The notes under the pieces were generated by a model that saw nothing but the letters and a program-made list of their open reading frames with translations, had not been told where the DNA came from and did not search any database. Of a stretch of DNA of 64,000 bases, positions 18,064-34,870 are shown piece after piece. The translations under genes were made by a program, and so were the position numbers. Source of the stretch: Pseudomonas sp. DTU12.3 (GTDB lineage: Bacteria; Pseudomonadota; Gammaproteobacteria; Pseudomonadales; Pseudomonadaceae); assembly GCF_004124275.1 (NCBI RefSeq), contig NZ_CP027218.1:5527001-5591000 (forward strand). Reading direction: 5' to 3'. Position 1 is the stretch's first letter; every line of letters starts with the position of its first letter.

Positions 18064-18073
18064 GTAGCCTTCA

Positions 18074-18209
18074 GGCGGTGTGAAAGCGTCGCGAGCGAAG
18101 GGAATACTAAGAAAAAACAGGCGAGGAAGCGGAGTTTACGGTTTGTAAATGAGCATTCCGAGCCTGTTTTTGACGCAGGATTACCGAGCGCAGCAGCTTT
18201 CACAGTGCC
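18074..18209. repeat. Three-tier palindromic element, copy A
   Basis: A nested inverted repeat between the rplU and ispB promoters. The outer arms are related to GGCACTGTGAAAGC and its complement, the middle stem is AAAAACAGGC / GCCTGTTTTT, with GGAA / TTCC inside, and the apical hairpin is TTTAC-GGTTT-GTAAA. A second copy with the same architecture lies at 34561-34712. It is unlike the REP families of this window. No coding potential is evident. Confidence 0.8.
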
Positions 18210-18219
18210 CGACCGCGCC

Positions 18220-34431: not shown

Positions 34432-34560
34432 GGAGAACCTTGGGTCAGTGACAGATGAATGATTGCAGCGCGGGCGATGCCCGGCCAGACCATGCGCGTC
34501 GTTCACTTGATGGTTATCAATGCGTGCGCGCTGAAAAAGTCTGAGTCTAGGAGCTGGACC

Positions 34561-34712
34561 AGACACTGTTAAAACGTAACGAGCGAAGGAAAGACAAGGC
34601 GAAAACAGGCGAGGACCGGTCGGAGTCGCGCTCGACTTTACGGGTTGTAAATGAGCAGTCCGAGCCTGTTTTCAACGCAGTATTTCCAAGCGCAGTAGTT
34701 TTAACAGTGTCT
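34561..34712. repeat. Three-tier palindromic element, copy B
   Basis: Perfect 15-base terminal arms (AGACACTGTTAAAAC at 34561-34575, complement at 34698-34712), inner stem AAAACAGGC / GCCTGTTTT and apical TTTAC-GGGTT-GTAAA. Same architecture and much identical sequence as 18074-18209. It lies in the 439-base gap between the divergent genes ettA and morA; the remaining part (34713-34870) probably holds the morA promoter and leader but I see no clear element. Confidence 0.85.
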
Positions 34713-34870
34713 GGGCTCCCGCGTAACCGGCAAAGCTACCTGAATGACCGGTGGCAGTCCAGCCGAGCGGGGCTGGCACTTCGCCACAACTCAAGGCATG
34801 CTAGCCGCCCTTTGGGCGTCCGGCTTATAGTGCACGTCGCGCCAGTCCAGCCAGACCGCAGGATTACAGC

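Follow-up and report, generated by a model that had tools for sequence, protein, structure and literature searches.

The palindrome that separates ettA from a gene for a PAS-GGDEF-EAL protein in Pseudomonas sp. DTU12.3 raises the question of whether it is a mobile element or a structured RNA, two readings that an earlier note had offered as alternatives. Within the window, by which we mean the whole stretch of 64,000 nucleotides that was analysed, the palindrome had been placed at 34561-34712 with exact 15-base ends, an inner stem and an apical hairpin. All three tiers are present: the arms at 34561-34575/34698-34712, the inner stem GAAAACAGGC/GCCTGTTTTC at 34601-34610/34664-34673, and the apical hairpin TTTAC-GGGTT-GTAAA at 34637-34651, in which TTTAC (34637-34641) faces GTAAA (34647-34651). 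The limits proved slightly wider. Pairing runs two pairs further outward and the palindrome spans 34559-34714, with 17 of 17 end bases paired (34559-34575/34698-34714), and the element itself, as delimited by its tips CAG...CTG and by comparison of filled and empty sites, is the 154 bp at 34560-34713. The element and its parts are given on the forward strand unless stated otherwise, the + strand of the element being the one with the conserved GTAAATGAGCA.

Perfect end arms, inner stems and the apical hairpin make the palindrome nearly complete, and its predicted folding energy gives a z-score of -6.8 as RNA and -8.7 as DNA, with none of 200 shuffles equal to it in either case. Among the filled loci, only this genome has perfect arms; the other 7 carry CCAGACGCTG on the left, with one G-T replacing A-T. 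Allowing up to 3 mismatches, the 15-base end has no further match in the window. Read from the sequence, 154 bp cannot accommodate a transposase gene. No Rfam model reached its gathering score in the window, where the only hit by E-value was an unrelated miRNA (E 2.7), and as far as tested the palindrome matches no described element or Rfam family.

The history of the site is visible in its relatives. Among 80 named Pseudomonas loci with the ettA-morA gap (ettA was assigned by a family model, and the name morA for the GGDEF-EAL gene is carried over from the earlier note), 7 are filled and 71 are empty, the remaining two being a locus with the right end only (L094) and one that could not be aligned (L065). 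Empty sites consist of a small hairpin, GGAGC-TGGAAC-GCTCC, the loop of which is exact in 69 of the 71 loci and changed in L138 and L141. Where the site is filled, the order is GGAGCTGGA, the element (CCAGAC...GTCTGG) and GCTCC, with small variants (the end GTCTTG in L077, GGG for GGA in L070 and L093). The element therefore sits in the loop of the hairpin, where two loop bases have been replaced and no target duplication is found; in the window the interrupted halves are GGAGCTGGA at 34550-34558 and GCTCC at 34715-34719, and relatives with an empty site read GGAGCTGGAACGCTCC. We infer that the filled lineages inherited this copy from an ancestor in which it moved. Of the eight filled copies, only this one and L066 have an extra hairpin at this site, GTCG...CGAC (34619-34636).

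This distribution bears directly on the proposal that the element is a structured cis-regulatory RNA of morA (or ettA), kept for gene control. Such an RNA would agree with the strong fold, with the covariation of the core described below and with the position of the element in the gap ahead of a GGDEF-EAL gene, where it interrupts a conserved leader. However, the element is absent from 71 of the 80 related loci, the same core also neighbours other genes and recurs in 70 of 177 genera, and there is no Rfam match, which together make this reading very improbable. An RNA specific to morA was rejected, the site being empty in most relatives, and the role in c-di-GMP gene control that the location had suggested finds no support. 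The leader itself (34715-34870) is strongly conserved, with a mean column identity of 88% (21 of 80 loci), and begins at the interrupted hairpin. It is predicted to form a long-range helix of 13 pairs, none of them changed on both sides, and it matched no Rfam family.

Copies of the element are dispersed. The genome of origin (G000, 6.27 Mb, one contig) holds 4 by similarity and 6 by the covariance model, i.e. four clear and two weaker copies and thus more than two, and matches were found in 42 of 95 genomes searched (this one included), with at most about nine candidates scored per genome and first-look candidates numbering up to 79. The two weaker copies (L294 and L295; C1:299288-299407 and 5419026-5419130) have quite different outer arms. 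The window contains a second, diverged copy at 18072-18211 (+ strand; coordinates converted from L003), which lies in the rplU-ispB gap inside a 9-bp host stem, CAAGGCGCG/CGCGCCTTG; the names rplU, ispB, def, fmt, arcA and arcB were, like morA, given by eye or taken from the earlier note. Of 30 loci of relatives, 4 have this stem intact, 6 show a single mismatch and 16 show two or more (3 loci were not found and 1 was misplaced), and since it is imperfect in most relatives the target hairpin here is variable. The def-fmt gap, filled in G012, has an uninterrupted terminator, GGCTTGC..GCAAGCC, in 27 of 30 fetched loci; the three exceptions are G012, G100 and G054, the last with a copy of its own (L268). 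At arcA-arcB, where 21 of 30 loci were displayed, 15 have a hairpin, five have no room for one and the genome of origin has the element. The arms of those 15 hairpins (within L142-L171) vary and are largely still complementary. Two copies lie close together or overlap in L271 (G042:C19) and in L241/L242 (G022:C67), with N letters in L241 and in L284, the same place as L242.

The ends of the element point to the kind of transposase that could have moved it. Both the CAG...CTG tips and the 15-base repeat are the element's own, and a reading of the outer arms as host terminators did not hold for most copies. At 12 of 15 bases the left terminal inverted repeat, CAGACACTGTTAAAA (34560-34574), is identical to CAGACTGTGTGAAAA, which terminates the IS1182-type insertion sequences, and the right repeat (34699-34713, - strand) is its perfect complement. 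Insertion sequence ends, CAGRCTGTGTGAAAAC, occur paired 1.2-1.7 kb apart in G012, G018 and G046, and the window copy shares 12 of 15 bases with them at each end. These three stretches have one long frame each, of 477-484 aa with DUF772 and DDE domains, and both transposases tested (L272 and L273) pass the IS1182 model NF033551 with 416.8 and 432.3 bits (cut-off 270); for L275-L277, of which L275 is shorter, the ends alone were read. When up to 2 mismatches are allowed, 11 of the 14 genomes examined contain the pattern CAGACYGTGTGAAAACG. In the genome of origin no IS1182-type end lies within 2 mismatches of this pattern, and a search that had no positive control found no IS1182 relative, so the window copy is now probably immobile, a fossil. 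We infer from these sequence likenesses that an IS1182-type transposase moved it, and such an enzyme would have acted in trans on an element without a gene. Other MITE-like elements of about 150 bp have similar IS1182-type ends and no visible core (L278, L280, L281 and L287), and in L282 (G022:C34) just 47 bp are left, comprising both ends and only a few bases of the core, as would result from excision of the hairpin. The paired arms of L019, L004 and L026 are unlike the IS1182 end.

Insertion sequences with these ends also share the taste for hairpins. Four of six IS-type stretches are flanked by duplicated tetraloops inside a terminator stem (CTGG, TTCG, CTTG and TGCG), with the other two flanked by GGTC (L274) and by no duplication (L276). 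For the group tests 43 of 87 motif matches were kept, the rest being poor-ended matches (chance motifs), the G041 copies L255-L262, L241 and out-of-register copies, among which L251 has a TTGG duplication that was left uncounted. In the hairpin test over 49 sites (43 MITEs and 6 insertion sequences), joined true flanks had a mean of -7.76 against -5.33 (sd 0.37) for re-paired flanks, a value reached in none of 2000 permutations, and the 43 MITEs alone gave -6.13 against -4.84 (sd 0.39; 1 of 2000 permutations). Exact 4-bp duplications flank 16 of the 49 sites, compared with about 1% of mismatched pairs. Five of the 6 insertion sequences have one, and so do 11 of the 43 MITEs, four of which share one repeated target (GGTA). 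Site by site, the hairpin test was passed by only 9 of 49, 4 of these being insertion sequences. The window copy does not pass it (p 0.18) and has no target duplication, a feature that most but not all MITEs show, and the second window copy gives p 0.65, its stem falling outside the 16 nt tested. Insertion into stem-loops without a sequence consensus is thus seen at ettA-morA, at def-fmt, at rplU-ispB (with a stem that most relatives have imperfectly) and in the group test.

We consider it very probable that the palindrome is a MITE, i.e. an element without a gene that is moved in trans by a DDE transposase, with IS1182-type ends and hairpin targets. IS1182-family insertion sequences take DNA hairpins, often transcription terminators, for their sites. 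The hairpin shape, the intergenic position and the occasional lack of a target duplication could also belong to a REPIN or another RAYT-mobilised repeat, or to an integron-type attC hairpin. Yet the ends and the duplications fit DDE transposases, insertion sequences with similar ends exist, and with a size of 110-154 nt as well as those ends we set this reading aside as scarcely credible. A phage origin was rejected when no phage record matched; four viral contigs (L350-L353) have an exact match to the core pattern. The MITE half of the original proposal is thus upheld by dispersed copies, by filled and empty sites and by transposase elements with similar ends elsewhere. It does not exclude the other half, because covariation in the core also suggests structural constraint.

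The evidence for that constraint comes from the folded core, which the covariance model R1, built from 29 cores, places at 34575-34698 (124 nt here, about 110 nt in most copies). Compensatory changes are many. In a structure-blind alignment of 23 copies, the structure has 51 pairs, including 17 in the arms, and 93.6% of cells are paired, against 35-41% in slid controls, over which the structure is somewhat favoured as it was taken from the window copy; 35 pairs have changes on both sides, and no shuffle out of 500 does as well. RNAalifold independently recovers nearly the same structure, with 48 pairs, 35 of which have double changes, and fold and covariation agree on both the inner stem and the apical hairpin. 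A model-fitted alignment of 51 copies (50 distinct) has double changes in 30 of 31 pairs and 95.3% of cells paired, against 36-47% in slid controls, with the alignment leaning towards R1. Core words are visibly common to the 48 copies displayed out of these 51, which were fetched from many genera. R1 matches 72 of 185 sampled gammaproteobacterial genomes, representing the 70 of 177 genera mentioned above, and across the phylum 45 of 200 genomes (24 of 109 genera), some of them outside Gammaproteobacteria; about 20 candidates were scored per genome, which makes copy numbers lower bounds, and E-values come from a short calibration. Some cores have additional modules at two places, for example one like CGCAACGACC...AATCAA in the left arm (L042, L046 and L050, and in variant form L045) and, close to the tip, hairpins that resemble TACTCGCTTCGCTCG (L044, L047, L050 and L053).

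Covariation of this sort can be read in two ways. Quasi-palindrome correction by template switching is a known mutational process, and in a MITE it could copy changes from one arm to the other with no selected structure in the core. The outer arms behave in this manner, as they vary most yet stay complementary (16 of 17 arm pairs double-changed and 90% of cells paired). On the other hand, bulges and internal loops that correction should erase (for example GGAG/TGA at the tip and GACAAGGC/AACGC) recur in the copies read, which come from many genera. G-U pairs also outnumber A-C mismatches, by 44:17 in the structure-blind alignment (21:8 in the core) and by 80:13 in the model-fitted one, which favours one strand; this strand test is suggestive, with both ratios weakened by shared ancestry and the 80:13 also by fitting. 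Both the conserved bulges and the surplus of G-U pairs lean, without proof, towards a core selected as a folded strand, and we regard neutral covariation as rather unlikely. Either the core is selected as a folded strand while associated with different transposases, or template switching keeps the palindrome. On the first of these readings, which we favour, the core would stay folded because one of its strands has a role, be it for the transposase, in replication or as an RNA; the constrained strand could be RNA or single-stranded DNA. Orientation relative to genes shows no bias, with 27 co-directional and 18 opposed copies over both sets, as counted from crude ORF calls with 15 loci inside an ORF and 14 with a one-sided neighbour. 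A bias in the first set (14 co-directional versus 5 opposed) was discarded, the second set alone giving 12 versus 15.

The same core is also found with other ends. Outside the IS1182-type copies these include CAGGCTGTTGAAAAA, GGGCACCTCTAAAAAT, CTACTGTGTCACAAAG, GGTTCTGTACGAAAAGTC and GGAACCTCTGAAAAA. With two duplicate loci taken out, 28 of the 107 other-end loci have a 4-bp duplication and ends that match in 9 or more of 12 bases, and 18 of the 28 duplications are YTAR, compared with 5 of 319 mismatched halves with such a duplication and matching ends (before removal, 30 of 109, 19 YTAR and 3 of 325). A YTAR target duplication is what we take to be the mark of IS5-type elements, and the YTAR duplications beside core copies with other ends point, at the level of sequence, to IS5-type transposases. 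An Azotobacter plasmid has annotated IS5-family genes between ends GGGTTTGTCTGAAAAGTC, and near them is a 0.9-kb stretch between ends GGTTCTGTACGAAAAGT with two frames that by eye resemble pieces of an IS5-type transposase. The core is absent from the ends that were read of the Azotobacter IS5-type and the Pseudomonas IS1182-type elements. The possibility that the window element is a piece of an IS1182 or IS5 insertion sequence was accordingly rejected, as the ends read share the terminal repeat and not the core, and because they lack it the core does not look like an insertion sequence remnant.

The window element is thus best taken as a MITE that has ends of IS1182 type, and the core is its novel part. 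We tentatively propose, as a possibility that falls short of an even chance, that one core under single-strand constraint extends across Gammaproteobacteria and to some genomes in other classes of the phylum, carried by MITEs whose ends belong to more than one transposase family. In that case the core would be what persists and the ends would serve as interchangeable vehicles, swapped perhaps through insertion of one hairpin into another's loop, which is how IS1182-type elements insert. A literature search on the core words returned no related paper (unrelated ones were judged by title), and in the literature covered, with subscription papers, supplements and ISfinder outside its scope, we found no account of one folded core with several types of transposon end.

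The usual view of a MITE is that of a degenerate copy derived from a single insertion sequence. A core whose fold is kept through hundreds of compensatory changes, with ends that resemble different transposases in different lineages, is unlike that picture, and it makes two matters testable: whether the fold helps an element without a gene to spread, and whether hairpin-targeting transposition can swap ends. The QMITEs and other bacterial MITEs are, in the accessible portion of a review, non-coding elements with terminal repeats and a folded transcript (PMC10969869), and the window element is likewise non-coding with terminal repeats; one covarying core under many end types is not reported in that portion (PMC10969869). 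The intergenic repeats R0-R200 of P. fluorescens, in the same genus, are dispersed and MITE-like according to their authors, R178 having 101 bp with internal 11-bp repeats (PMC2718517), a likeness drawn from the available part of their description and not from sequence. MITEPsy1 of Pseudomonas syringae is described, in the part of its report available to us, as a non-coding element of 100 nt with IS5-like ends and a CTAG or YTAA duplication (PMC3189936), which fits YTAR as the mark of IS5-type elements. By that partial description it resembles the G041 copies (GGAACCTCTGAAAAA; duplications such as CTAA, TTAG and TTAA), and its ends are unlike those of the window copy.

According to the accessible text of two papers, the staphylococcal IS1182-family elements IS1272 and TnSha1 target hairpins, part of which is deleted on insertion, and do not duplicate the target (PMC5678879, PMC4923244). 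The window element resembles them in its IS1182-type partner transposase (here in other genomes), in its hairpin or terminator targets, and in a site from which target bases were lost with no target duplication. Both of those elements carry their own transposase, whereas the window element has 154 bp and no gene, and no such core is mentioned in the accessible text (PMC5678879, PMC4923244). The Pseudomonas insertion sequences that we read differ from IS1272 and TnSha1 in that they mostly duplicate the tetraloop, which bears on the strand-joining mechanism. The targeting of hairpins and terminators by IS1182-type elements is thereby extended from staphylococci to Pseudomonas.
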